Shown here: one piece after another, positions 3,438 to 25,712 of the stretch
Position numbering within the stretch: position 1 is the first letter of the stretch
Layout of the letters: each line of letters begins with the position of its first letter
Assembly: GCA_903916325.1 (NCBI GenBank)
Contig: CAIWWK010000107.1
Span: forward strand, 1-35,677
Source: Candidatus Firestoneibacteriota bacterium
Lineage (GTDB): Bacteria; Oederibacteriota; D2-FULL-39-29; CAIOVX01
Direction: 5' to 3'
Length of the DNA: 35,677 nucleotides
Position numbers and translations under genes: made by a program
Notes under the pieces: model-generated
Told to the model about the DNA's origin: nothing
What the model saw: only the letters and a program-made list of their open reading frames with translations
The model's database searches: none

Positions 3438-4787
3438 CTATTTGAAGTACCTCGGAAGATATCTCTTCTGCTTCACGAGCATTTCCTCAAGCAGGACTTC
3501 GGCGTTCTTAAAATCCTTAAGGAGCGGGTCAAGCATCAGGGCTTTCATTGCAAGTTTTCTGTCGCCTGTCATTGCCGAATCAGCCGTAAGTTTATGAATC
3601 GCGCCCATCTTTCCGACAACTTCTGCGACGGGTACCGTCAAGGCGCCCAGAGTCAACGCTTTGAAGCCGAACTGGCCGAAAACCGCAGGAATTTCAAGGC
3701 AATAGTCAGCCGGCAGGTTGCTGATGCTTCCGTTATTCAAGATGTTTACCGCGGGATTTATGTCTCCTTTGTTCCTGATTATGGACATCATTATGTTATG
3801 GGCTTCTTCTCCTGAAGGTTTGTCCATATCCCAGGGATCTTCTTCTCTAGCTATCCATTTTTTAAGAAGTTTTTTCGAATCTTGTTTTTGTTTTATGGCT
3901 TTCCTGAAATCTCTCTGGTTCAGCCCGTAGTCTTTGCCGTTCTTTGAATTCGGGTCAAGGAAATACGGGAAAAATTCCACGATGTGAGCGTCACCGGCTA
4001 CAGGCATCATCCCGTACCATTTGAAGAGCTTTCCTGTTATTTCCCAATGTTCGTGCAACCGTTCCTGTTCCAGCCAGTCCTTGCTGTTCTTCTTTCCTGC
4101 TTTTGGTTTTGTGGTGTAGTTGATGAAATCTTTGTACCAGGACTCGGTCTTGTTCTCCCCTTTGACCCAGACTTCTTTTACCCACGTGAAATGATTGGTG
4201 CCGGCGGCAAAAACATCTATTTCTTTCTTCTTCGCGCCGTAAACCTTGCAAACCATCTCTTCAACTCCGCCGATGGCGTGGCACAATCCGACGCATTTTA
4301 TTTTGCTGTAACGCTGAACTACAGATGTCAGCTGGCTCATGGGATTGGTGAAGTTTATGAGCCACGCGTCCGGGCAGAGTTTTTCCATGTCTTTGACGAT
4401 GACCATCAGAGCTTCTATGTTTCTGAAGGATCTGACCAGGGCGGACGGGCCCATTGTGTCGCCGACTGTGTTGCTGATGCGGTGCTTAACGCAGATCTTT
4501 CCAATCTCCATATCCGCAAGCTCGCCGCCGACATTGATGCAGAGCATAACATAATCCGCGCCCGAGAGCGCCTTCTTACGGTCCGTGGTTCCTTCAACTT
4601 TTATATTAGTCCCGGAGAGCTCATTCATTATTTTACAGACGGCAGATATGTATTTAATCGGTTCAGGGTTAATATCGAACAGCACAACCGTTGATTCTCT
4701 CAACTCTTCAATCTTTACCAAATCCTTGAAAACTCTGTGACAAAAAAGGTAACTCGCTCCGACAAAGACTATCCTGTACTTTTTCAT
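3438..4787 (-). CDS. Glycoside hydrolase family 4 (alpha-galactosidase/alpha-glucosidase-like)
   Basis: Rossmann N-terminus 'IVFVGASYLF', 'NFTNPMSQLTSVVQRYS', 'VGLCHAIGG', 'AAGTNHFTWV' typical of GH4. Confidence 0.85.
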   Translation of the reverse strand: MKKYRIVFVGASYLFCHRVFKDLVKIEELRESTVVLFDINPEPIKYISAVCKIMNELSGTNIKVEGTTDRKKALSGADYVMLCINVGGELADMEIGKICVKHRISNTVGDTMGPSALVRSFRNIEALMVIVKDMEKLCPDAWLINFTNPMSQLTSVVQRYSKIKCVGLCHAIGGVEEMVCKVYGAKKKEIDVFAAGTNHFTWVKEVWVKGENKTESWYKDFINYTTKPKAGKKNSKDWLEQERLHEHWEITGKLFKWYGMMPVAGDAHIVEFFPYFLDPNSKNGKDYGLNQRDFRKAIKQKQDSKKLLKKWIAREEDPWDMDKPSGEEAHNIMMSIIRNKGDINPAVNILNNGSISNLPADYCLEIPAVFGQFGFKALTLGALTVPVAEVVGKMGAIHKLTADSAMTGDRKLAMKALMLDPLLKDFKNAEVLLEEMLVKQKRYLPRYFK

Positions 4788-11170: not shown

Positions 11171-13054
11171 CTATTTCTCAACAGGCAGTATTATTCCCTG
11201 CATAATGATTCTTTGGGCGAATATGAAGACCAGAAGCACCGGCAAGGCAGCAAATGTCAGCGCCGCCATAACCAGATGCTGGCCGTTCGCGCCGCTTGAC
11301 TGCTGGAACTGGTAAAGCGAGACCATAATGGTCCACATCTTGGGGTCCTGGCAGATGATAAAGGCCCACATAAAACCTCCGTAAGTTCCTACAAAGGTCC
11401 AGAGGGCTATGACAGCAAAAACGGGTTTGCTCAAAGGGAGCGTGATGTGCCAGAACATTTGAGCTTCGCTTGCTCCGTCAAGATCCGCGGATTCATAGAG
11501 GTCTTTCGGCAAACTGTCAAAGAATCCTTTTAGAATGAATATATTATACCCGCTTGCCATGCCGGGAAGAATTAGCGCCCAGAAAGTATTAAGGAACCCC
11601 AGCTGTTTTAGAAGAAGAAACCCTGGGATCATTCCCACTTCCGCGGGAAAAGCCATAGTGGCCAGAAGAAACAACAGTATTCTGTAGGCGTACGGCAGGC
11701 TGTACCTTGAAAGAGCATAAGCGCAGAGAGGGTTAACAGTGAGACTGGTAAGTAGCATCGCAAGCACCAGAATCACCGTGTTCACGCTGGCCCTGCCGTT
11801 CAGCAGCATATAGCTAAGGACGTCCGAATAGTTGTTTATGATGAACCCGAAGCGGAGTCCTTTTTTGTGCGAAAGAAAGTATGAGCGGTCTTCTTCTCTT
11901 ACGGGCATGGGCGCATCGGAGAAAGATTTGCAGGATGTTCCATACGCGCGGTTCATGTTTTCAGGTCGCCCGTACAATGAGGAAAGAAACTCGGCGTATT
12001 TCTGTGACGCGTCGAAAATATGAATTGAACCGACCGGCGCGTCTGTATCGCAGTAATTTCTCCAGTCAAGTTTCGGCTGGCCGTCCTCTGCCGGTTCATA
12101 TTCTGGAAGTTTGACTTCGCCGAGACGGGAATACGCGGTTTTGTAATAACGGTTAAGCCGTTCAACATTTCCGTATTTATTCTTTAAGTATGATGTATAA
12201 GCAGGACTATTCCCTGAGAATTTTATATAACGGTAAGGTATCTTGCTCCTGACATAGGTTGTCCAGCAGGCTGCCTCTTTAGGGTTCTTAGGCAGGGTTT
12301 CAGCGAGTTTTATCCCGTCGAAGTTTTTGTATTCCGTTCCCCATTCCGAATTGAGTTTGCTAATCTCAAGATAGAGGCTCAATTTCAGGTATTCGGTGTA
12401 TCTTTTTTCCAGCAAAGCCGGAATCCTGTGGCTCGCAGGAAGTTTATTTTTGAAATCGAGATAATCCTTCCACTTCGCGCTCTCGCGGCTCGGTTTCCAG
12501 GATCTGACAAGCGGCTCGTCAACAGGGAAGAGCAGGAATTCAAAGCTTGAAAGTGTTTCTGCGTAGCCGTTATTGAGGTGTTCAATATCAAAAAACTTGA
12601 CTTTTGTCTGCTTCCTGTAGTCTTTCAAGACCTCGTAATTGAAACCGCGCGTCCAGTACTCTGAAGGCAGTTTTGCAAGAAACTCTTCGTAGTCTGCAAG
12701 ACGTTCTCTTACCTGCTTTCCGGAAACACCCGGGTATTCCGCAGTTATTTCCTTGTAGGATGGAAAATCCGTTTTGTAAAGGCTGTTAAGCGGCAGAATG
12801 TTCTTCTCGCCCCCGCGGTACCGGTCCGTATATTTAAGATTGAGGTACTTGCGGTAAAGGGCGTCATCGTCAAGATAGAATCTTGGAATAAGCCTGAACT
12901 CATCATAATCAACGGAGTTTGTAGTAGAGCTTGAGAGCATAAGCAGGAAAGGATAAGTAAAGATTACCGCGCCGAGAACGCAGAAAAGATAAAGCAAAGT
13001 AAACAAAAGCCTGCTCTTTTTACTCTTTCTTCCCACCATTGCTATTATCGGCAT
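11171..13054 (-). CDS. MalG-like carbohydrate ABC transporter permease with large extracytoplasmic insertion
   Basis: N-terminal TM; C-terminal permease core with EAA motif 'LYESADLDGASEAQMFWHITLPLSKP'. 627 aa, with ~350 aa between TM1 and the core. Confidence 0.88.
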   Translation of the reverse strand: MPIIAMVGRKSKKSRLLFTLLYLFCVLGAVIFTYPFLLMLSSSTTNSVDYDEFRLIPRFYLDDDALYRKYLNLKYTDRYRGGEKNILPLNSLYKTDFPSYKEITAEYPGVSGKQVRERLADYEEFLAKLPSEYWTRGFNYEVLKDYRKQTKVKFFDIEHLNNGYAETLSSFEFLLFPVDEPLVRSWKPSRESAKWKDYLDFKNKLPASHRIPALLEKRYTEYLKLSLYLEISKLNSEWGTEYKNFDGIKLAETLPKNPKEAACWTTYVRSKIPYRYIKFSGNSPAYTSYLKNKYGNVERLNRYYKTAYSRLGEVKLPEYEPAEDGQPKLDWRNYCDTDAPVGSIHIFDASQKYAEFLSSLYGRPENMNRAYGTSCKSFSDAPMPVREEDRSYFLSHKKGLRFGFIINNYSDVLSYMLLNGRASVNTVILVLAMLLTSLTVNPLCAYALSRYSLPYAYRILLFLLATMAFPAEVGMIPGFLLLKQLGFLNTFWALILPGMASGYNIFILKGFFDSLPKDLYESADLDGASEAQMFWHITLPLSKPVFAVIALWTFVGTYGGFMWAFIICQDPKMWTIMVSLYQFQQSSGANGQHLVMAALTFAALPVLLVFIFAQRIIMQGIILPVEK

Positions 13055-13142: not shown

Positions 13143-15692
13143 TCATCTTGCGACTTTGAAGGTGACCCGCTTAAGGATTCTCAGCTGATAAATAGTGAAA
13201 CCAATCAACATCATTCCCATTATCCAGGCTATTGCCGTTGCGTAGCCGAAACGGAGAAACAGGAACGCGTCCATCCAGATTTCGAGCCCGAGCACGTGTG
13301 TCGCGTGACTCGGACCTCCTCCTGTCATTACGAGGATATTCCCCATCCCCTGGAAAGCGCCGATGAACGCTCCGACAAAGTTTATAATTATCAGCGGCCG
13401 AAGCTGAGGCACCGTAACGAACCATATTTTCTGCCACGCAGACGCTCCGTCAACATCGGCGGCTTCATAAAGATCATCGGGAATTCCCTGCAGAGCCGCG
13501 AGGTAAATAATACTGCCGGGACCGGCTCCCGCCCAGATGTTGGGTATGATAACGCAGAGCATTGGAATAAGCGGATGCTGAGCGTCCTGCAGCCATTTTT
13601 GCGCGCCGATGCCGAAAAGTCCTGCCACTTTGTTTAGCAGCCCTGCCGGCGAAGGGTCATAAAAACTCATCCAGAGAATCAAAAGGACAAGCGAAGTTGT
13701 AAGAGCGGGAGTATAAAAAAGAGTCCTGAAAAAAACCTTGCCCTTAGGAATCTCGGAAAGCACGAGCGCCACGATTATGGGAAGGAAGAAACCCAGCCCA
13801 AGAGTCAGCGACACAAAAACCAGAGTATTTGTAATCGATTTCCAGAAAAGCGGCGAAGAGAAAACATCAATAAAGTTGTCAAGCCAGATGAATGTGCTGG
13901 CCCCGACTATTTTGTAATCAAGAAAGGCCAGCCTGACGCCGTTCAGCAGCGGATAATATTGCCAGACCGCTACCGACAAAAGGGCAGGAAGCATAAAGAG
14001 CCAGGCTATTGCAGTGGTCCTGTATTTTCCTTTAAGGCCGCCCGGTCCCTCATGGACATTGGTCTTCCGGTCTGCAGAGAAGATCCCGACGAGGTTCTTC
14101 CCGATGATTATCATAAGCCAGATAAAAAGAGCGGCGATAAAGAAAAAAATAGCGTTTGCCAGAGAACGTTTCTTTTTCATCTCAACAGGGTCTTTGACGC
14201 CGAGCAAGACTTTGTTTGATTTTTCAACAACCTTGTCAAGCTCGGAGGGAATATCGCTCTCTTCTTCAGTAAGGGCCTTGTCAACCGCCATCGGAAGTTC
14301 CACAGTGGCTACGGATTTGTAACCCGTAGCGTAGGGTTCAGGCCGCGCGTTCTGAATCTGCCGCTTGTAGGAACTCACCCAGGAAGCCGGTATCTGGTCG
14401 CAATATTCGTCGTAGCCGAATTTCTTCAAAAGTTCCGGGTTAGCATATTGAGCCTGCCCGGATTCAACTATTGATTTTATCCTGAGTCTCGCGGCCTCGT
14501 CGGACGCCTGGAACTTAATGTATTCCCAGGCTGCGTCCCTCTTCTTCCTGTCCCTTATCTGCGAATTTATGCACCAGGTAATAGTCTGCATATTGTTCGC
14601 TTCAATTCCGGTGGGGCCCGCCGGCAGGGTAGAAATTCCAACTTCAGAAGCCGAGAAGCCTGAGTTGGCGGCAATCATATCGCCGCCGGCATAGCTGAAG
14701 ATCATGGCGACGCTTCCTTTAAGGAATTCTTTCATGGCGTAATCATAGTCAACGATGACTTTCGCGCATCCTTGATTGATCTTGCCGCCGCGGGTATATT
14801 TGCCAAACCTGAATTTCTTAAGGTACTCCAGGGCTTCAATTCCGGGCTTCTCGTTGAAAGTTACCCTCCAGACATATTTGCCGGAATTAGATATGTCCGC
14901 GCCGCACTTCGCGCACTTATCCGGATATATCGCCCAGCCGCCGTCGAACTTTCCTTCAAGCTGCCTGTTTGCTTCCTTGCAGGCAGGGCATTCTTTGTAT
15001 TCGCGCGCCATCTCGCCGCCGGCCTGCCACACAAAATTCGGAAAGAGCCATCCTCCCCAGATCCCGAGGCCCAGTCCAAGGCCGTACTGGCCTTTGTTTT
15101 CATCGGTGAGCTTTTGGGCGTATTCATAGAGTTCATCCCAGTTTTTTGGCGGTTTCTCCGGGTCTAAGCCTGCTTTTTTGAAGAGATCTTTTCTGTAGTA
15201 CAGGCCGAAAGCTTCGCTGAAACTAACCGGTATTCCGTAGATATTGCCGCCGCGCCTGTCGTAGTAGATGGGTTTAAATTTATTTAACATGAAAGGTTTG
15301 AAGAGTGCTTTGTCCTTCTCGTAGTATTCGTTTAGCGGATAGAGGAACCCCTGGTCCATGTAGAGCTTGAGCCCGCGGAAACTTACCTCAAAGATATCGG
15401 GCGCCGTGCCGGCGGCCATTGCCATCATAAACCCTGACTCGGCCGCGTTTCCCGTGACTGAGATTCCTCTGGTTTTGACAATGTTGATTTCAGGATGTTG
15501 TTTAACGAAAGCGTCGAAGACGACTCTACCCTGGATGTTCCAGGCTTCCGGTACATCCCACATGTTTAGAGTCACTGATTCCGGGCAGGCGCAGAACGGA
15601 CGGGCAAGCAGTAAAGAGAATAAAACGGCGCGGAATAGATTTCTCATAGGTGAGCTGTTTTTAACAGAATTGACTGCAGGTGTCAACTTCAA
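13143..15692 (-). CDS. Fusion of extracellular sugar-binding protein with MalF-like ABC permease
   Basis: N-terminal family-1 SBP-like region ('VTLNMWDVPEAW', 'AAGTAPDIFEVSF', 'YGIPVSFSEAFGLYYRKDLFKKAG'), then TMs and EAA motif 'DLYEAADVDGASAWQKIWFVTVPQLRP'. An alternative start at 15647 gives a more typical signal peptide. Confidence 0.9.
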   Translation of the reverse strand: MKLTPAVNSVKNSSPMRNLFRAVLFSLLLARPFCACPESVTLNMWDVPEAWNIQGRVVFDAFVKQHPEINIVKTRGISVTGNAAESGFMMAMAAGTAPDIFEVSFRGLKLYMDQGFLYPLNEYYEKDKALFKPFMLNKFKPIYYDRRGGNIYGIPVSFSEAFGLYYRKDLFKKAGLDPEKPPKNWDELYEYAQKLTDENKGQYGLGLGLGIWGGWLFPNFVWQAGGEMAREYKECPACKEANRQLEGKFDGGWAIYPDKCAKCGADISNSGKYVWRVTFNEKPGIEALEYLKKFRFGKYTRGGKINQGCAKVIVDYDYAMKEFLKGSVAMIFSYAGGDMIAANSGFSASEVGISTLPAGPTGIEANNMQTITWCINSQIRDRKKRDAAWEYIKFQASDEAARLRIKSIVESGQAQYANPELLKKFGYDEYCDQIPASWVSSYKRQIQNARPEPYATGYKSVATVELPMAVDKALTEEESDIPSELDKVVEKSNKVLLGVKDPVEMKKKRSLANAIFFFIAALFIWLMIIIGKNLVGIFSADRKTNVHEGPGGLKGKYRTTAIAWLFMLPALLSVAVWQYYPLLNGVRLAFLDYKIVGASTFIWLDNFIDVFSSPLFWKSITNTLVFVSLTLGLGFFLPIIVALVLSEIPKGKVFFRTLFYTPALTTSLVLLILWMSFYDPSPAGLLNKVAGLFGIGAQKWLQDAQHPLIPMLCVIIPNIWAGAGPGSIIYLAALQGIPDDLYEAADVDGASAWQKIWFVTVPQLRPLIIINFVGAFIGAFQGMGNILVMTGGGPSHATHVLGLEIWMDAFLFLRFGYATAIAWIMGMMLIGFTIYQLRILKRVTFKVAR

Positions 15693-15701
15693 AAAACGGG
15701 T

Positions 15702-16175
15702 TTATACCATGAGTCTGAAGATATAAAGCCCGAGTGAAAAAGCGCCGTACCAGCAAGTGGCGGAAATTCCGGCGCCGATAGCTCCAAACAGAAGGGCTTT
15801 GCGGTATTCAGGGGTTTTTTCGAAATTGGGAAGTTCCACGGCCTTGTCCATCATTGGATTGACTATGATATTCAGGAAGAGGCCGTTTATGGTGAGTAAA
15901 GTCACGAAGACCATTTTCATGAAAAAGAGTTTCGAATGTATAGCGTCTCCGTAGGTTGCGGCCGATGTAAAATAGAGGGCAACACCGGATGAAATCAGCA
16001 GGAAAAGACCGGCCCAAATTAAGAGCGACAATATCTTAAAAACGGCGACTGCTTTAGGCATTATCTTCGGATTCAGCATGCCGTACGCGCCTAGCACGTA
16101 AGTGACCGTGCAGGTGCCGATACCCACATCCAGGCCGAACACATGAAGTGCAACGAGCATAAAGTACAAAGACAT
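15702..16175 (-). CDS. Small integral membrane protein (about 4 TM), function unknown
   Basis: ORF dominated by hydrophobic segments; no family recognised with confidence. Confidence 0.65.
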   Translation of the reverse strand: MSLYFMLVALHVFGLDVGIGTCTVTYVLGAYGMLNPKIMPKAVAVFKILSLLIWAGLFLLISSGVALYFTSAATYGDAIHSKLFFMKMVFVTLLTINGLFLNIIVNPMMDKAVELPNFEKTPEYRKALLFGAIGAGISATCWYGAFSLGLYIFRLMV

Positions 16176-16226: not shown

Positions 16227-16733
16227 CTACTTCTTTTTCCACCCCGCCCACTTGCTGACTTTCTTTTCGAGTAGAGTTTTTACTTTTAACACCAGCTCGT
16301 CCGGTTCGGCGGGTTTGTTGATAAACCCGTCTACCGGCAGAAAGGACGGAACATTAAGAGTAAACAACTCATCCTTGCCTGAACTTTTTCCCTGACCGGC
16401 TTCCGTCGAAACCGGCATGCCGTCCATATCCGGCAGGCTGTCAAAAACAGGAAGTTTTAGGTTAACAGAAGTAATCATAAGGATTAATGTTCCGGAAAGG
16501 GCAGGGTCCTGACGTATCTTTGACACAAGCTCAAGCCCGTTCGTTTTCCCGCCAGGACCAAACATTACATCCAGGATCATTATGTCTGGTTTCTCGGTTT
16601 TTAGTTTCTCAAAGGCGGAAAGCGTATCGTAAGCGGGTATTATCTCAAACCCCGCTGCCTCCAGCACAATCTTCATCGTCTCAACAAGGTCGATATCATC
16701 ATCTGCGAGCAGAACCGTTTTTTTGTTTCCCAT
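16227..16733 (-). CDS. Response regulator receiver-domain protein (no output domain)
   Basis: 'TVLLADDDIDLVETMK', 'DIMILDVMFGPGG', 'LMITS', 'DGFINKP'. Confidence 0.88.
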   Translation of the reverse strand: MGNKKTVLLADDDIDLVETMKIVLEAAGFEIIPAYDTLSAFEKLKTEKPDIMILDVMFGPGGKTNGLELVSKIRQDPALSGTLILMITSVNLKLPVFDSLPDMDGMPVSTEAGQGKSSGKDELFTLNVPSFLPVDGFINKPAEPDELVLKVKTLLEKKVSKWAGWKKK

Positions 16734-16736
16734 ATC

Positions 16737-18104
16737 CTAAACCTCCCCGGTAGAACCGGAAGCAACAGGCAGTGAGAAGATGAACCTGCTGCCCTGTCCA
16801 AGCCTGCTTTCAAGCCAGATCCTGCCATTATGTGAATCCATGATCTGTTTGACTATTGAAAGTCCGAGTCCAGTGCCGTCCTTTTCTATCATGCGGGCGT
16901 TCTCAGCCCGGTAAAAGTCCTTGAAGAGCGATTGCTGGTCATCCTCTGCAATCCCGATGCCGGTGTCTCTTACCGATACCTCTATGTTACCGTCTTTATT
17001 CCTTAATTCCAGCGATATTTTGCCTCCGGAGGGAGTATATCTGACTGCATTTTCAAGAAGATTTATAAAAACTCTTTCTATGGAGTCTTCATTTGCGAGA
17101 ATCATGGCCTCTTCAAGCTCATCGCGGAACTCAAATTTGATTTTTTTGGCCTGAAATCTCTGGCTGAAATTATCAACCGTGCGCTCCGCGATTCTTGAAA
17201 CCGAAACCTGGCTCTTTCGTAGGTTCTTGTCCGCCCTTATGCTTGAAAGGTTCAACAGGTCGCTTATGAAATCAAGCATGTAGACGCTGCGCCTCTCCGC
17301 TCTCGATAACATTTCGGTGGTTTTTTGCCCTATGCTTCCTGTCAGTCCTTTCAGCACAACCTTTAGGCAGCTTTGAATAGTGGACACCGAGGACTTGAGG
17401 TCATGGGAAACAGTGAGCACGTACTGCGACTTGAGCCGGTCTTGCTCTGCAAGCAGTTTGTTCGCCGCGTCGAGTTTTTCTTCCCTGTCTCTTAGCTTAT
17501 TCACGATTGTCGCCGCCATGAAGATGGTAATGAAGAGAGTTGATGAAAGAACTCCGAGAGAACCTGCGAGGTATTTGAAGTTATAGATCATCTCTGAATC
17601 CGGAAATCCAGAGACATGGTAATGAGGAATAACGCCCGCGTATTCAAGGAAAGAAGTTGACCCTATCAATAAAACTGCAAAAGCTCCGTGAGCGTAGGCG
17701 GCTCTGTTGGAAAGCAGAATACCCGCAATTACCATGTGAAAGATAAAATAGTAAACGAATGGATTTTCTATACTTCCGCCGAAGTGCAGGAAGTAGGTCA
17801 GCATAAGCAGGTCGGTAGCGACTTGTATATTGGCAAAAAGATTCTGTTTTTTATTGTCTTTTCCGGGGCTTGCCGAGAGCCTTTTCCAATATAAAAGAAA
17901 AACTGCGTTATAGCACGCCAGTATTGCCGCGCCGGCGTAAAGAAAGCGCAGAGGCAAGGTGACCTTGAATATTAACGATGCCGCGGTTACAACTCCGGCT
18001 ACGCCTATAACCGCAAGCCAGCGGAGATCGATGAACCATCTGGCGCGTTCATCGACCTCGCTGCCTGCAAGAATATTTATTGGAAAAGCGTCCCGGAGTT
18101 CCAT
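16737..18104 (-). CDS. Membrane sensor histidine kinase
   Basis: Multiple N-terminal TMs; 'VSHDLKSSVSTIQ' H-box, 'NLLENAVRYTPSGG' N-box, 'DTGIGIAEDDQQSLF', 'GTGLGLSIVKQIM'. Confidence 0.93.
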   Translation of the reverse strand: MELRDAFPINILAGSEVDERARWFIDLRWLAVIGVAGVVTAASLIFKVTLPLRFLYAGAAILACYNAVFLLYWKRLSASPGKDNKKQNLFANIQVATDLLMLTYFLHFGGSIENPFVYYFIFHMVIAGILLSNRAAYAHGAFAVLLIGSTSFLEYAGVIPHYHVSGFPDSEMIYNFKYLAGSLGVLSSTLFITIFMAATIVNKLRDREEKLDAANKLLAEQDRLKSQYVLTVSHDLKSSVSTIQSCLKVVLKGLTGSIGQKTTEMLSRAERRSVYMLDFISDLLNLSSIRADKNLRKSQVSVSRIAERTVDNFSQRFQAKKIKFEFRDELEEAMILANEDSIERVFINLLENAVRYTPSGGKISLELRNKDGNIEVSVRDTGIGIAEDDQQSLFKDFYRAENARMIEKDGTGLGLSIVKQIMDSHNGRIWLESRLGQGSRFIFSLPVASGSTGEV

Positions 18105-18109
18105 TTAAA

Positions 18110-18685
18110 TTATTTTAATAGCTCCTGGTAAATCGCGATGACTTTGTTAACCGAGAAGCAGGTACATTCTGAAGAAATGGTAGCTCCCGATACGCCTGTT
18201 ATGCCCTTGCCGAGCCCGACTCCGTCGCCCTTGCCGTTAAACTGCGACAAAAAGTTCTTTGTCGCGATGGGGCGTCCCCTCTTTTCGGACAGGGACATTA
18301 CGGCCATGTTTTTTACTTTTGCCGTTTTCGGGTCAAGCATTACTATGTACTTTACCGGACCCCACTTTCCCGGCTCTTCTTCCATTATCGCCACGCCGGT
18401 CTTCTCGCCACCCTTAATTCCATAGTAAAGCGTATATTCTGTTTCCGGTTTCCACGTGTTGCCTTTTCCGGACCCCTTATATACAAGCGTGCCCCCCAGT
18501 TTTTCTTTAATACCTGCTAGTTGTTTAGCATCAAGAACTTTCTTTACTGTATCAACCTTGTCGGCATCTGGGAACATCTCCTTTACCGCCTGGTCGCTTG
18601 TTAAAAGTTCTACCGCCAGGCAGGTGCCGCTTAACGCGAGAAAACAAACAAGTCCCATAACCACTGCAGATATTCTGTTCTTCAT
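18110..18685 (-). CDS. FMN-binding domain protein (RnfG/NqrC-like flavinylation substrate), secreted
   Basis: Signal peptide; C-terminal 'GITGVSGATISSE' matching the ApbE-recognised SGATxS motif. Confidence 0.87.
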   Translation of the reverse strand: MKNRISAVVMGLVCFLALSGTCLAVELLTSDQAVKEMFPDADKVDTVKKVLDAKQLAGIKEKLGGTLVYKGSGKGNTWKPETEYTLYYGIKGGEKTGVAIMEEEPGKWGPVKYIVMLDPKTAKVKNMAVMSLSEKRGRPIATKNFLSQFNGKGDGVGLGKGITGVSGATISSECTCFSVNKVIAIYQELLK

Positions 18686-19698
18686 TTCTTTCCTCCTTTC
18701 TCTTTTAGAGAAAATAGTTTTTTTAGCCCGTCAGTGAGAGTTATCTCGCCTTTCGCGCTTATGATAATTGCTTCCGTGCCGGGATATTTTTCAATAAGTT
18801 TGAGGCCCTTATCTCTTCCGAGCACGAATACAGAAGTAGAAAGAAGGTTAGCCATAGTAGCATCCGGGGTGATTATCGCCACAGTCATGAGTTCAGAAGC
18901 TGGGACGCCTTTCATCGGATCAATTATGTGACAGTATCTCCTTCCGGCTATTTCATAATATCTTTCGTAATCTCCTGAAGTTGACATTGAAAGTTCTGTC
19001 ATCCCGAGGACACCGAGAGCTCCTTCTCCTCTGGGATTTTTAATTCCGGCTTTCCAGGGTTTTCCGTTATACAGCCCAATCGCGTAAAGATCCCCTCCGA
19101 GGTCGACCATGGCGCTTTTAACGCCGGATTTCTTGAGGGATTTCATTGCCTCGCCGACCGCATATGCTTTTGCTCCCGCCCCGAGGTCAATTTCCGCTGA
19201 AGAGCGGAGTTTTACAAGCTTGCCGTCTTTCAGTTCTATGCTGCCGGGTCCAATTTGCTTCATGGCGGCAAGGATTTCTTCTTTTCCGGGAATCTTGGGG
19301 TTTTTAGGAATTTCTCCATAGAATCCCCAGAGTTTCACCAGAGGAGTAACAGTGATATCAAATGCGCCGCCGCTCTTTTCATTAATATCAAGGCATCTCT
19401 TTACAAGTTCAAGCGTCTCCGGATCCGTTATCGGAATTGCATGTTTATTAAACTCATAGACCGGACCGCCCGGCCTAAAAGCGCTGAACTTCTTGTCAAG
19501 TTCCTCAACTCTGTCCAGAGCAACGTCAAGCGCCGCCTCAATTTTCTTGTCTCCTTTGACCGGAGCCAGGACTGAACAGTAGGTGTCCATCAGGTAGCGC
19601 GTCTTTTTGGTCAACTCACCGTCCGGGCCGGTTGACGCGAATAGAGGTATAGCCGCGCAAAAGATGATTATGTTGAGCAACTTTACAGTCAATTTCAT
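18682..19698 (-). CDS. apbE: FAD:protein FMN transferase ApbE
   Basis: 'MDTYCSV', 'GGAFDITVTPLVKLWGF', 'VDLGGDLYAIG', 'STSGDYERYYEIAGRRYCHIIDPMKG', 'ATMANLLSTSVFVLG'. Confidence 0.93.
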   Translation of the reverse strand: MKLTVKLLNIIIFCAAIPLFASTGPDGELTKKTRYLMDTYCSVLAPVKGDKKIEAALDVALDRVEELDKKFSAFRPGGPVYEFNKHAIPITDPETLELVKRCLDINEKSGGAFDITVTPLVKLWGFYGEIPKNPKIPGKEEILAAMKQIGPGSIELKDGKLVKLRSSAEIDLGAGAKAYAVGEAMKSLKKSGVKSAMVDLGGDLYAIGLYNGKPWKAGIKNPRGEGALGVLGMTELSMSTSGDYERYYEIAGRRYCHIIDPMKGVPASELMTVAIITPDATMANLLSTSVFVLGRDKGLKLIEKYPGTEAIIISAKGEITLTDGLKKLFSLKEKGGKK

Positions 19699-19759: not shown

Positions 19760-21061
19760 TTAGAACGTGGTTCTCCAGCCTACTACCAGCCTGTTATAGT
19801 TCAGCTCAGCGGTGCTGTAAGCAGAGCTTGGCAAAAGACTTATGCTCGAATTTTCCACATTTATCACCTGAAGGTAGATAATAGAATCAGGCGTTACGTA
19901 GAAATTCAAAATAGGCGATAGTTCAGTGTATGTTTCATAAGCAAAAGCTTGCTTATTCGCGGCTGCTGTCGCACCGCCGCCAATTACCGCGGCCGACTTC
20001 TGCAGGCTGCTGAAATCCTGGTCATAGTGCGCGTATACCATCAAGAACCTGACCCACGGGAATATTTTGTAACCAGCTTTCATATAGTATGAGTGGGGAG
20101 TGAGGTTTCTAGTTACTTGAGAAGCGTCATTGATATCAGTATTAGCATACATCTTAACATTAGTCCAGGTTCCGCCCATATACTCGGTCCTGAACATAAA
20201 CTGGTCATAGTTAAACGCTACGCCTGCAGAATACCTATAAATCGGGTTATTGCCTGTAGCGTCCATGGTCGAGAAGTAAGAACCCATAAACTTGAAAGGG
20301 CCTATCTCGGGAGTAATGTGCGCGAGTACGCCTCTCGAATTTGTGCTGCTGACGAGCATATTCATACCGCCGCCAAGGATATACAAATAGGACGGCAGAG
20401 AGACCGGTCCTAGTTCGAAATTCTTATAGAATTCCAGTCCCGTGTCATCCAGTGTTCCATAATATCCCCCGCATACTGCGTAGTTACCGAAGAATTCATC
20501 CTCGTACCAGAGCATGTTTCCGTAATCTTCAGTGAAGAGGGTGCGGAGAGATCCCGCGGTGAGTTCGACATTTTCCGGGAGTTTTACGGTGATCTGGGCT
20601 TTAAGTAATCCGAGACTGAGCGTCGGGCTTGTTGAGGGAGTCGGAAATGCCGCCCCTAATTTAGGAGTTGCTCCTCCGCTGACGGAGATCTCGGGATCTA
20701 TCTCCAGGGAAACATTTTCAGACAAATCTTTGTTTATGAACATGTAGAAACTGGTCATGCCTGTAAGGGCTCTCTCGCTTGATGCCGCCCCGTTGCTGAC
20801 TCCTTCGGATTTATCATAGAGATAGAACTTGAAGTTCCCGCCTACCGTTCCGCCGCTATTTCCGGAGTTTGCAGAAGCCTTAGTCTCTGCTTTCTCGGGC
20901 GCCGGCGCTGTTTTTACTTCTGTGTTTAGGGTCGATGGCGCTGTCTTTGTGTCAGCCTGTGCGTCGTTTTTTAAGGGAGCCGCGGTTTCCTGCGCGTTAA
21001 CCGCAGAAAAAACAGCTAGAACCGCCGCGCACAAGATCAATTTCAAGAATTTGTTGTTCAT
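19760..21061 (-). CDS. Putative outer-membrane beta-barrel (porin-like) protein
   Basis: Signal peptide, Ala/Pro/Lys-rich linker, alternating aromatic/hydrophobic strands, C-terminal Phe (VGWRTTF). Confidence 0.75.
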   Translation of the reverse strand: MNNKFLKLILCAAVLAVFSAVNAQETAAPLKNDAQADTKTAPSTLNTEVKTAPAPEKAETKASANSGNSGGTVGGNFKFYLYDKSEGVSNGAASSERALTGMTSFYMFINKDLSENVSLEIDPEISVSGGATPKLGAAFPTPSTSPTLSLGLLKAQITVKLPENVELTAGSLRTLFTEDYGNMLWYEDEFFGNYAVCGGYYGTLDDTGLEFYKNFELGPVSLPSYLYILGGGMNMLVSSTNSRGVLAHITPEIGPFKFMGSYFSTMDATGNNPIYRYSAGVAFNYDQFMFRTEYMGGTWTNVKMYANTDINDASQVTRNLTPHSYYMKAGYKIFPWVRFLMVYAHYDQDFSSLQKSAAVIGGGATAAANKQAFAYETYTELSPILNFYVTPDSIIYLQVINVENSSISLLPSSAYSTAELNYNRLVVGWRTTF

Positions 21062-21117: not shown

Positions 21118-22221
21118 TTATCGGGCTTTCTCTGTCTCCGCGTAGAGTAAAGCCACGAGATTTATCGCTACCGGCAATGCCTTTTTAAATATAGTGCGGT
21201 CAAACTTATGCTGTTTGATATAGAGGCGTGATCTTTCCCAGAAGACAGGGATATTCTCCCACGCAATCATTACTATCAGGGAGAGCCTTTCCCCAATAAT
21301 CGTCTTGAGGCTTCCCGCAAGTTCTTCCGCCGGAGTTGAAGCAGAAAGCAGGGTAGTTGCCGTCATTAAAAGAATAAGCCTGAACGCGAAGAGCAATCCG
21401 GTCAATAGCCCTGATTGCGTCACTTTAAGCAGCCAGAAAGTAAATAGCTCCGGTCCGCCGCGGTTGAAAAATACAGGAATGACAAGTGAAAAAACAAGGA
21501 ACATTCGCAGCCTTTTAACTCCGGAGAACATTATTGCCAGAGGAGTTTTTAGGCCTATTGAGGCGGCAAGGAGTAAAAATAACACAAGCGCGTAAAGTCT
21601 AAGGTCGCTGATCAGAAGGACTAAAGAGCAGAATACTGCCGTGAGAATTATCTTTATCATCGCAGGCCGGGAAAAAGCCGCGTTGCGAGCGATCTTCTTT
21701 ATGCCCTGTGCTTCCGGCAGCGTGTCGGCGATTCCTCCTTCTTTTATCCTGGCGAATACATTCATAGCGACAGCCCCGGTAAGCCAGCCCATTACCACAG
21801 CGCTTGCCCCAAGCCAAGGAATCAGCATAAAAACGCCCGGATGGTGAATCACAAGGGCATAAACCACTAACATCTGGGTAATGACATGCGTGACCGAACC
21901 GAGCACGCTAGCGCTGATAAACCCGAGATATCTGAAAGCAAGTCCCATAAAAACAGTGCTGGTAACCGCGCCGGCAAAACTCATCACAAAAGTCGGCGAG
22001 AGGAAAGTGCCTAAGAAGAGTGAACTGACGACTGTCCTGAGTATCGCGACCTCAAGCGCCGGAATAAATCCCATGTCTGCAAGGACTATGAGGATAATTA
22101 TATTAGCCAGCCCGAGCTTAACACCGGGCAAAGGGCTCGGCATTAAAAACTCGGCCGCCTGAAGTACCGAGGCGCAGGAAACCAGGAGCGCTATTTTTTG
22201 TATTTTCTTTTCGTTTTGCAT
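21118..22221 (-). CDS. Gx-transporter / HepT-I-like membrane domain fused to EcfT/CbiQ-like domain
   Basis: N-terminal half 'SVLQAAEFLMPSPLPGVKLGLANIIILIVL...RTVVSSLFLGTFLSPTFVMSFAGAV' is Gx-like; C-terminal half 'FAFRLILLMTATTLLSASTPAEELAGSL' is EcfT-like. Confidence 0.8.
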   Translation of the reverse strand: MQNEKKIQKIALLVSCASVLQAAEFLMPSPLPGVKLGLANIIILIVLADMGFIPALEVAILRTVVSSLFLGTFLSPTFVMSFAGAVTSTVFMGLAFRYLGFISASVLGSVTHVITQMLVVYALVIHHPGVFMLIPWLGASAVVMGWLTGAVAMNVFARIKEGGIADTLPEAQGIKKIARNAAFSRPAMIKIILTAVFCSLVLLISDLRLYALVLFLLLAASIGLKTPLAIMFSGVKRLRMFLVFSLVIPVFFNRGGPELFTFWLLKVTQSGLLTGLLFAFRLILLMTATTLLSASTPAEELAGSLKTIIGERLSLIVMIAWENIPVFWERSRLYIKQHKFDRTIFKKALPVAINLVALLYAETEKAR

Positions 22222-22222
22222 T

Positions 22223-22600
22223 TTAGTAGCTCATTGCGACATAATCTTCATCGCCGCTCTTCCCGGTTACTTCAACAATGACCTTGTTTGCCACGCACAC
22301 TATTGATTCACCGGGTGAAGAGACCCATCCGAAGGCAACGCAGAGGCCTTTTGGACAGTCCGAATCAAGTACCCTGACTCTGCCGTCCTTAACTTGTATG
22401 TGCATGCGTCCGGCGCTAATTATCCGGTCAGTTTCAAGAGGCCACTCGGCTATAAGCTTGTTGTCTTTGAAAATATTGACCTCTTTCTGTCCGGAGGCGT
22501 CACGGTGTAAATACCAGTAGGGGACTGCAACCACTAAAATGAGCATGATTAGTGAAAACGCGGCATCGAACATCCTTATTTTGAATTTAGTCTCTGCCAC
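22223..22600 (-). CDS. NusG domain II-containing membrane-anchored protein
   Basis: One TM, then 'VKDGRVRVLDSDCPKGLCVAFGWVSSPGESIVCVANKVIVEV'. Start set to GTG at 22600 with AGGAGG 5 nt upstream, because the ATG at 22627 lies inside the sigma-54 promoter region. Confidence 0.82.
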   Translation of the reverse strand: MAETKFKIRMFDAAFSLIMLILVVAVPYWYLHRDASGQKEVNIFKDNKLIAEWPLETDRIISAGRMHIQVKDGRVRVLDSDCPKGLCVAFGWVSSPGESIVCVANKVIVEVTGKSGDEDYVAMSY

Positions 22601-22630
22601 ATTTCCCTCCTGCAACTGTCTATACATTAA

Positions 22631-22645
22631 GCAAGAAGCGTGCCA
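22631..22645 (-). promoter_or_regulatory. Sigma-54 (RpoN) -24/-12 promoter
   Basis: Minus strand TGGCACG-CTTC-TTGC, matching TGGCACG-N4-TTGC. Predicted TSS ~22620, just upstream of the AGGAGG/GTG start at 22600. Confidence 0.85.
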
Positions 22646-22813
22646 GATTGAATTTGAGGTGAATTAATGGGTAAATATACAGGAAACGTGTTTTTGGCAT
22701 TACGAAAAGGTAATATTGGCTCAAAAGGTAATGGCTGGAACGGCTAATAATTCAAATTACTGAAAACGGGCCTTATCTGAAAGGTAAAGAGTGTACTTAG
22801 AAAGAGTTAAATC

Positions 22814-24160
22814 CTAATCTATTCCGTATTCTTTTGACTTTTCCCAGAGGGTTTTGGCAGATATACCCAGCATTTCCGCCGCCTTTTTCTTTACCCCCCC
22901 GGAGTGTTCGAGAGTCAGCAGTATGTGCGCTTTTTCTGCCTGCCTGACTACGGTATCCAGGCTTGATTCCTTCCATTCATTTTTTTCAAGAAAATATGAG
23001 GGCAGAGCGGAAACCGTTATCTCCCTGGAAGAAGCAAGGCTTACCAGTCGTTCAATGAGATTTTCAAGCTCGCGGATGTTCCCGGGCCAGTAGTAGCGCG
23101 CCATTGCCTGCAGTACTGCGGGATTAAGTTCGGTATCCTTTTGCATGGCGGTATTAAACTTGTTCAGGAAATGCGCCGCGAGAGCAGGTATATCATCGCT
23201 TCTTTCCCTTAGAGGCGGCAGGTTAACCGGGACAACGTTGAGCCTGTAGTAGAGATCTTCCCTGAAGGATCCATCTTTTACTTTTTCACGGAGATCCGCC
23301 TTCGTTGCCGAGATAACCCGCACATCAGTTTTTATTGTTTCAGTGCCGCCGACCCGTTCGAACTCCCTCTGCTGCAGCACTCTTAAAAGTTTTACCTGAG
23401 CCGAGGGCTGCATATCGTCAATATCATCAAGAAAAATTGTACCGCCGTCCGCAAGTTCAAACCTTCCTATCTTCCTTCTTATTGCATCAGTGAAGGCTCC
23501 TTTCTCGTGCCCGAATAATTCGCTTTCCAGCAGGGCCTCCGGCAGCGCGCTGCAGTTTAACTTGATAAGAGGCCCATCCCTGCGCGGGCTCAGTTTGTGT
23601 ATCGCTTCGGCTGCCAGTTCCTTCCCTGTCCCATTTTCGCCCTGAACCAGAACTGTGGTGTTATATTGCGCGACAGACTCTATTAGCCTGAAAACGTTTT
23701 CCATAAGACGGCTTTTTCCTATTATGTTCACCAGCGAGCCGGAAGGTCCAATCCTGTTCTTTAGGATCATATTCTCTTTTTTAAGGGACTGAAGTTCCAG
23801 CCCGTTCTTAACTATAAGTATCATTTCCTCGGCGAGGAAAGGTTTGGTCAGGTAATCAAAGGCGCCTATCTTCATTGCCTGCACCGCGGTTTCCACAGTG
23901 CCGTAGCCTGTCATAATAACGCAGACCGCTTCAGGGGAGGTTTCTTTAATACGCTTCAGCACCGAGATACCGTCAAGTTTCGGCAGTTTAAGGTCCAGTA
24001 TCACCAGTTCAAAATCGTTCTTTCTGAATTTCTCGATGCCTTCCAGCCCGTCAACCGCTGAAGACGTGGAATAGCCGGACCGTCCCAGGTTGTCCTCGAG
24101 CATATTGAGCATCAGATCGTCGTCTTCGATTATGAGTATTCTCGGTTTACCGTTTGTCAT
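22814..24160 (-). CDS. Sigma-54-dependent response regulator (NtrC/AtoC family)
   Basis: Receiver 'ILIIEDDDLML...VILDLKLPKLDG'; AAA+ 'GENGTGKELAAEAIH', GAFTGA-type loop 'GAFTDA', 'GGTIFLDDID'; Fis-type HTH C-terminus. Confidence 0.95.
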   Translation of the reverse strand: MTNGKPRILIIEDDDLMLNMLEDNLGRSGYSTSSAVDGLEGIEKFRKNDFELVILDLKLPKLDGISVLKRIKETSPEAVCVIMTGYGTVETAVQAMKIGAFDYLTKPFLAEEMILIVKNGLELQSLKKENMILKNRIGPSGSLVNIIGKSRLMENVFRLIESVAQYNTTVLVQGENGTGKELAAEAIHKLSPRRDGPLIKLNCSALPEALLESELFGHEKGAFTDAIRRKIGRFELADGGTIFLDDIDDMQPSAQVKLLRVLQQREFERVGGTETIKTDVRVISATKADLREKVKDGSFREDLYYRLNVVPVNLPPLRERSDDIPALAAHFLNKFNTAMQKDTELNPAVLQAMARYYWPGNIRELENLIERLVSLASSREITVSALPSYFLEKNEWKESSLDTVVRQAEKAHILLTLEHSGGVKKKAAEMLGISAKTLWEKSKEYGID

Positions 24161-24162
24161 TA

Positions 24163-25251
24163 TTATAGTTCTCCTTTAAAGACAGGAAGAGTGATCACTA
24201 CCGCTGTTCCGCCTTCAGGGATTCCCTGAATTTCAAGGGTTCCGCGCAGGACCTGGATTATATTGTAACTGATAAAGAGCCCGAGTCCGGTTCCTTCGCC
24301 CACTTCTTTTGTGGTAAAAAACGGCGTGAAGATTTTGTCTCTGTGTTCGGCGCTGATTCCCTTGCCACTGTCCTTGAAAATTATGCTTATTGATTCTGTT
24401 TCTGCCGAAGTTGTTATTGAGAGGTCTTTCCTTTCGGTCTTTTCCATGGCGTCTGTGGAATTCTTGATTACATTTGTAAAAACCTGGTTGAGTTGCGAAG
24501 GGTCGGCGTAAGTTCTGGGGAGTGAAGCGGAAAGTTTAAGCGACAGCTGAATAGATTTCTCCTTTAGCCGGAATTTGTTAAACTCCGACAGTTCAAGGAT
24601 AAGCTTGTTTATGTCTACGGGTTCAAGGTTCTGCCTTCCGGAATAGCTAAGTATCTGCTTTACCACATTATCAATCCTAAAAAGTCCTTTTAAACTCTGC
24701 TCAAGATAATTCCTCGCATCGGGTTTAAGCTCAGGGTCAGCTAAAGTTGTCCTGATGTAGTTAATCACAGCACCGAGAGGATTATTTATTTCGTGGGCAA
24801 TGCCGGCGGAAAACCTGCTCAGCGCGGCTACCTTTGCCGCTTGAGAAAGGCGGGATTCCGCTTCTTTCAGTTCGGCTGTGCGGGTTTTAATGGTTTCACT
24901 AACCTCACGGTTCTTTTTATCCAGTTCTTTTAGCAGGTACACGCTGGTAGTTTTGAATTCCGAGAGTTTTGTTTGCGCAGTCTTCATATCATTCTGCTCG
25001 GCAAGAAGTTGTTTTGTCACCGATTTGAACTGCCCGGACATGACTTCAAGTGTTTTCAAGCAGTCGGCGGGATCATAGTTGGTTTTGAAGACGCTGCAGT
25101 CCAGGCAGGCAGCCATCTTCTCTACGCATTTTCCGCTGATCTCATCATTGCAGTAAGTTCCTCCGATGAGCCAGCATTTGTTGTCCGCTTTCCCGTAGGC
25201 AGGGCATTCCTTCTTCCCGCACTCAAGTATTTCCCAGCAGTTTGTCTTCAT
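24163..25251 (-). CDS. Sensor histidine kinase with N-terminal Cys-rich (two-CW-like) domain
   Basis: 'CWEILECGKKECPAYGKADNKCWLIGGTYCNDEISGKCVEKMAACLDC' then coiled coil, 'GIAHEINNPLGAVINYI', 'GTGLGLFISYNII'. Confidence 0.92.
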   Translation of the reverse strand: MKTNCWEILECGKKECPAYGKADNKCWLIGGTYCNDEISGKCVEKMAACLDCSVFKTNYDPADCLKTLEVMSGQFKSVTKQLLAEQNDMKTAQTKLSEFKTTSVYLLKELDKKNREVSETIKTRTAELKEAESRLSQAAKVAALSRFSAGIAHEINNPLGAVINYIRTTLADPELKPDARNYLEQSLKGLFRIDNVVKQILSYSGRQNLEPVDINKLILELSEFNKFRLKEKSIQLSLKLSASLPRTYADPSQLNQVFTNVIKNSTDAMEKTERKDLSITTSAETESISIIFKDSGKGISAEHRDKIFTPFFTTKEVGEGTGLGLFISYNIIQVLRGTLEIQGIPEGGTAVVITLPVFKGEL

Positions 25252-25712
25252 TAAAATTCAATCACCGTCGGAGGTTCGTTATTGAGAGCTTCACTGTAAA
25301 CGCGGAAACGCAGTATAGTAGGGGAGAGTTTTAGAAAGGCAAAATGTCCGGCGGTAAGTCCGGCTTCAAGGGCTACATCCGCGAATGGGTTTCTTCCTTT
25401 TAGTTCCTCGAGCGCGCGCGCCTGCTCCTGTTCGGAGTTAAGCAAACTGACAAAGCCGTTCAGTTCGCATTCCCAGGAAAGGTCGAAAGGGTTCTCAAGG
25501 CTATAAATCAGCACGCTGACTTTACCGGCTCCCGCAAGATGAGATAATTTGGGACTATCCTTCAGCGTCATCAGGTAGCATTCGAACTTGTCGGTGACGC
25601 CATAGTACATAACCCGAAGCCTTACATACCCGCTTTTGCTGTCATCAGTGGCAATTACCGCTACTTGGCGTTCTTTCAAGCGTTCAAAAATATCCCTGGC
25701 TGAGTATTGCAT
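25251..25712 (-). CDS. Pyridoxamine 5'-phosphate oxidase-like flavin split-barrel protein
   Basis: 'QVAVIATDDSKSGYVRLRVMYYGVTDKFECYLMT' followed by 'KVSVLIY', typical of the PNPOx-like fold. Confidence 0.7.
   Translation of the reverse strand: MQYSARDIFERLKERQVAVIATDDSKSGYVRLRVMYYGVTDKFECYLMTLKDSPKLSHLAGAGKVSVLIYSLENPFDLSWECELNGFVSLLNSEQEQARALEELKGRNPFADVALEAGLTAGHFAFLKLSPTILRFRVYSEALNNEPPTVIEF

Follow-up and report, generated by a model that had tools for sequence, protein, structure and literature searches.

The 35,677-nt DNA stretch analyzed here (the window) comes from a lake bacterium of the uncultured Firestonebacteria and carries a set of flavin-related genes behind a promoter-like element, raising the question of whether this element is a working sigma-54 promoter and, if so, which regulator opens it. 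As read from the sequence, positions 22645-22630 on the minus strand form TGGCACGCTTCTTGCT, a full-consensus -24/-12 element. From 22645 onwards the strand gives TGGCACGCTTCTTGCTTAATGTATAGACAGTTGCAGGAGGGAAATGTGGCA, which agrees at every position with the sigma-54 consensus TGGCACN5TTGCT (PMC12316311), with GG at -24, GC at -12 and the TGGCAC-N5-TTGC spacing all in place, and a search of the window for TGGCACGNNNNTTGCW without mismatches returned this element as its single match. The promoter claimed in an earlier sequence-only reading is present on the minus strand as described, as are the AGGAGG (22611-22606) and the GTG start (22600) that it had placed behind it. The region comprises the following features:

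22727-22732, minus strand: additional ATTACC half-site, 18 bp upstream of the palindrome
22699-22714, minus strand: putative activator-binding palindrome (UAS), ATTACCTTTTCGTAAT, centered near -87, found in six genomes
22630-22645, minus strand: sigma-54 -24/-12 promoter, TGGCACG-CTTC-TTGCT, at the same position in six genomes
22619, minus strand: expected transcription start, placed by promoter geometry from the -12 C at 22631
22606-22611, minus strand: Shine-Dalgarno AGGAGG ahead of the GTG start at 22600, in the predicted leader

The program-called ATG at 22627 is 4 nt past the -12 C (22631) and some 8 nt short of the expected transcription start (~22619), which excludes it as start codon of this transcript. 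In the three congeners (G001, G002 and G003, all Candidatus Firestonebacteria MAGs), a GTG or TTG start with its Shine-Dalgarno sequence is kept and the equivalent of this ATG is not. The earlier reading had placed this ATG inside the promoter; it is outside the -24/-12 elements.

The genes that would be transcribed from this element fit EetA, EetB, FmnA, ApbE and FMN-binding functions, in line with the flavinylation/redox operon proposed before:

22223-22600, minus strand: NusG_II-domain protein, EetA-like (PF07009, 87.7 bits), start corrected to GTG 22600
21118-22221, minus strand: EetB-like (PF07456) and EcfT/FmnA-like (PF02361) domains fused in one protein, a probable flavin exporter
19760-21061, minus strand: probable outer-membrane barrel; a signal peptide and a C-terminal Phe were read from the sequence
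18682-19698, minus strand: ApbE, FAD:protein FMN transferase (PF02424, 255 bits)
18110-18685, minus strand: FMN-binding-domain protein (PF04205) with the flavinylation motif VSGATIS
16737-18104, minus strand: second histidine kinase with a PilS-like membrane domain, possibly on the same transcript (5-nt gap to the previous gene)
16227-16733, minus strand: receiver-only response regulator, possibly on the same transcript
15702-16175, minus strand: small membrane protein with no Pfam family; a homologue lies within the flavin operon of G009 (L072:1783-2250, 46% identity)

We take the NusG_II domain to identify EetA. A PF07456 exporter subunit, an EcfT-type partner and ApbE are all found in the window, as expected of an EetAB/FmnA/ApbE system, and the VSGATIS motif, which is of the [ST]GA[ST] type, is shared by the FMN-binding proteins of the window and the three congeners. 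In G008, a genome of the same order, the flavin operon has the same gene order up to the contig end at the barrel. No ECF ATPase subunits and no electron-donating membrane enzyme were seen within the window; the small membrane protein at 15702-16175 is a candidate membrane electron carrier. The barrel matched no Pfam family, and its AlphaFold model, based on four near-identical sequences, was discarded (pLDDT 27). Extracellular electron transfer in Listeria relies on EetB and FmnA to export the flavin used in ApbE-type flavinylation, and the genes eetA, eetB and apbE co-localize widely (PMC9973259). Elsewhere in the window, 13143-15692 encodes an 849-residue protein that appears to be a sugar-type ABC solute-binding protein fused to a permease, and the next gene, 11171-13054, a permease with a large extra-membrane insert, both by inspection of the sequence only.

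Upstream of the flavin operon, three genes run in the same direction, in the order PNPOx-like protein, kinase, activator:

25251-25712, minus strand: PNPOx-like split-barrel (flavin-binding-type) protein, first gene of the cassette (PF01243)
24163-25251, minus strand: histidine kinase with an N-terminal cysteine-rich two-CW domain (NF045718) and no apparent membrane span
22814-24160, minus strand: sigma-54 activator with receiver, AAA+ domain and Fis-type HTH; GAFTDA loop

The activator carries the receiver motif LDLKLPK with the phospho-acceptor Asp, the Walker A motif GENGTGKE and a Fis-type HTH (PF02954), and thus matches the earlier description of an upstream sigma-54 activator with its kinase: a receiver/sigma-54 activation/Fis-type HTH regulator is paired with a histidine kinase. 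Both partners scored above their cut-offs, with 40.6 bits for the two-CW domain of the kinase (cut-off 35) and 31.1 bits for the PNPOx-like protein (cut-off 28.1). Across 383 genomes, the kinase N-terminal region was high-scoring in only six (219-266 bits, compared to 62-70 for the next best), and the promoter was present each time. We found no paper on the two-CW domain.

These six genomes are the window's own (G000), the three congeners, G008 and G005, the last two from the same order. In each, the -24/-12 element stands at the same place behind the PNPOx-kinase-activator cassette, and so does a feature overlooked in the earlier note, a palindrome of the general form ATTACY-N4-SGTAAT (ATTACCAATTGGTAAT in G008, ATTACTTTTATGTAAT in G005), which together with its half-site constitutes a putative activator-binding site. 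Palindrome end and promoter are separated by 52 or 53 bp in 6/6 genomes, and an ATTAC half-site lies exactly 18 bp upstream of the palindrome, again in 6/6. The center of the palindrome, near -87, is a common location for an enhancer-binding-protein site. Promoter and palindrome are kept in all six genomes, while the non-coding DNA around them has diverged. The palindrome pattern occurs once each in G000, G001 and G003, and G002 has a GTTAC form at the same place, suggesting that the activator has few or no other targets in the genus. Further matches in G008 (C46, C167) look like chance, with no -24/-12 site in the adjoining sequence examined.

With cassette, putative site and promoter found together in six genomes, the proposal that the kinase-regulator pair activates the flavin operon gains support, and we consider it very probable that 22645-22630 is a working sigma-54 promoter, opened by the adjacent pair, that turns on these genes. 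The element recurs upstream of the orthologous operons in the congeners and G008, a check that the earlier note had proposed. The phylum-level flavin-operon homologues (G009, G018, G030, G036, G042) lack the activator cassette and show no convincing -24/-12 site in front, so that the wiring is, as far as sampled, restricted to the order. Within that order, G004, G006 and G007 have neither the two-CW kinase nor an EetB/EcfT protein.

Full-length sigma-54 activators number only two in the genus, the cassette gene and a PspF-like one (C45) that lacks a receiver and has the canonical GAFTGA loop. As the sigma-54-contact loop of the cassette gene is non-standard and differs among orthologues (GAFTDA in the genus, GSFTGA in G008, GAFSDA in G005), the promoter could be real but opened by C45, the adjacent GAFTDA protein acting as a repressor or modulator. 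In NorR, the same Gly-to-Asp change (G266D) frees the protein from repression and renders it constitutive, with sigma-54 transcription still activated (PMC2941729), and for a GAFTDA regulator of Dickeya no pull-down of sigma-54 was observed (PMC10714721). We nevertheless regard opening by C45 as very unlikely. GAFTDA and GSFTGA are listed among the variants expected to keep activity, and a natural GAFTDA regulator has assigned target operons (PMC4641369), so that the loop, though non-standard, is compatible with activity; moreover, the G008 orthologue has the GSFTGA form, and the adjacent activator accompanies palindrome and promoter in all six genomes, including G005, where the output has changed. 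Separately, three genomes of the genus have a second sigma-54-like promoter (TGGCACGCATCTTGCT or TGGCACGTATTTTGCT), without the palindrome, immediately ahead of groES-groEL (L074:1149-1164 in G000:C288, L085 in G002:C2, L075 in G003:C165); the PspF-like activator may act on it.

The 213-bp gap between activator and flavin operon yielded no terminator, so read-through could supply basal expression, and the promoter types of this phylum are poorly known. Most transcription of the flavin operon might come from read-through of the PNPOx-kinase-activator operon, or start at a sigma-70-type promoter that escaped detection, leaving the sigma-54 site a minor role. This account is very unlikely, given that 22550-22900 contains no sigma-70-like promoter and that the -24/-12 element and the palindrome are strongly and selectively conserved compared to their diverged surroundings.

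The short motif carries little weight alone: TGGCACN5TTGC occurs three times in the whole genome and four times in the reversed control, and is thus not significant by itself. The longer form, TGGCAYGN4TTGCW, gave 15 matches versus one for the control (five genomes), and first-order Markov simulation of each intergenic region put the probability of a chance promoter at 0 to 1.8e-4 and that of a chance palindrome at 0.5 to 1.5e-4. Within the 1.33 Mb examined (both strands counted, loci overlapping heavily), the palindrome-promoter pair was found at these six loci only. It is the order-wide conservation at fixed spacing that provides real evidence for the promoter.

The sequence-only reading had held that a genome without rpoN would speak against it. 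No rpoN gene is found in this assembly (87.7% complete, 295 contigs), so the objection formally arises; it fails, since all three congeners (G001, G002, G003) have rpoN and the whole rpoN neighborhood is missing here, pointing to an assembly gap. A 9.5-kb rpoN block of G001 matched this assembly only at a short dispersed repeat. Loss of rpoN by this species was considered and rejected, as the neighbors of the gene are absent from the assembly too. The gene is also present in G005 and G008, and in 37/40 genomes searched overall. As a separate observation, a dispersed short repeat containing ACGTTATAAACGTTACAAACGTTATAAAC (L099:8454-8527) has 44 matches in G000, on many contigs. That the element arose by chance, or is conserved as a site for some factor other than sigma-54, is extremely unlikely: the short-motif counts and the rpoN-less assembly would fit such a reading, but not the fixed-spacing conservation in six genomes behind a sigma-54 activator, nor rpoN in the relatives.

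The favored circuit, a sigma-54 promoter opened by the adjacent pair, would operate as follows. RNA polymerase with sigma-54 would wait at 22645-22630 in a closed complex, while the kinase (24163-25251) would sense the cytoplasmic redox, metal or flavin state via its two-CW domain, perhaps assisted by the PNPOx-like protein. The kinase would then phosphorylate the activator (22814-24160), which would bind the ATTACY-N4-SGTAAT palindrome and the half-site 18 bp upstream and open the promoter with ATP, switching on the EetA, EetB-FmnA, barrel, ApbE and FMN-binding genes. Their products would move flavin out of the cell and couple it to an exported protein, and would probably serve to pass electrons through the envelope. 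The parts in cis with their conservation and fixed spacing, the protein domains, and the change of output in G005 described below are read directly from the DNA; from phosphorylation and palindrome binding to activation, signal and electron route, the steps are ones that we infer.

A clue to what this switch serves comes from G005 (98% complete), in which the EetB/EcfT protein has no match. G005 carries orthologues of the PNPOx-like protein (50% identity to its window counterpart), the kinase (53%) and the activator (60%), together with palindrome, half-site and promoter at identical spacing. The first intact genes beyond the promoter code for a DmsE-family decahaem cytochrome (10 CxxCH; TIGR03508, 259 bits, cut-off 192), an MtrB/PioB-type barrel (PF11854, a weak match at 30.2 bits, cut-off 23), CcsB, ResB, a second CcsB-like protein and HemA, beyond which more genes resemble tetrapyrrole synthesis on reading the sequence. 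As the same cassette and switch precede a decahaem cytochrome/barrel operon, the cassette appears dedicated to trans-envelope electron export. A truncated receiver fragment lies between the G005 promoter and the cytochrome (L127, G005:C124, minus strand, reverse-complement 3900-4140), with 30% identity to the response regulator at 16227-16733 over 79 residues; it may be the scar of a flavin operon lost by deletion, which is only suggestive, the receiver family being common. The G005 and G008 cassettes are nearer to each other than to those of the genus, as expected from descent, and the most economical history has an ancestral flavin output that the G005 line exchanged for the cytochrome one.

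Whether the PNPOx/two-CW-kinase/sigma-54-activator cassette is, more generally, a dedicated electron-export regulator with interchangeable output, flavin-based in most cassette-bearing members of the order and a decahaem porin-cytochrome conduit in another, is a question on which we see the chances as evenly balanced. If true, the flavin operon, barrel included, would serve as the functional counterpart of the Mtr conduit, with the two-CW domain sensing the electron-acceptor or redox state. The exchange of outputs behind one conserved switch provides independent genetic evidence that the flavin operon has the same task as the cytochrome conduit, moving electrons outward. In the open-access papers searched, we found neither such a flavin-to-cytochrome exchange behind one switch nor a sigma-54 link to ApbE/EetB flavinylation operons (ApbE with RpoN; EetB/FmnA with two-component regulation). 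An uncultured phylum thereby gains a concrete, testable regulatory circuit, with the two-CW domain as a possible redox or acceptor sensor.

The two-component, enhancer-dependent sigma-54 circuit is a textbook type. With NtrC/AtoC-type systems it shares the receiver-AAA+-Fis HTH order, the partner kinase, an upstream palindrome near -87 and a TGGCAC-N5-TTGCT promoter. Peculiar to the present case are the GAFTDA/GAFSDA loop, the ATTACY-N4-SGTAAT palindrome, the two-CW sensor kinase and the PNPOx-like partner, and the activator does not reach the curated cut-off of any of the 25 named families that match it best (476 of 714 bits for AtoC, 434 of 558.6 for NtrC). Natural GAFTDA and GSFTGA variants are likewise assigned to sigma-54 regulons in Desulfovibrio vulgaris, although its GAFTDA case, DVU2106, differs in being a single-component regulator assigned to cell-division genes (PMC4641369). 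On the output side, the Listeria flavin EET locus (EetA, EetB, FmnA, FmnB/ApbE, PplA; PMC9973259) shares the NusG_II, EetB-family, EcfT-family and ApbE proteins and an FMN-binding protein with flavinylation motif, whereas here EetB and FmnA are fused, a probable outer-membrane barrel and sigma-54 control are added, and the cluster is without an NADH dehydrogenase. Finally, the porin-cytochrome conduits, composed of a DmsE/MtrA decahaem cytochrome and an MtrB/PioB barrel, are absent from the window and resemble the G005 output, with its haem and cytochrome maturation genes, as an alternative output of the same cassette.
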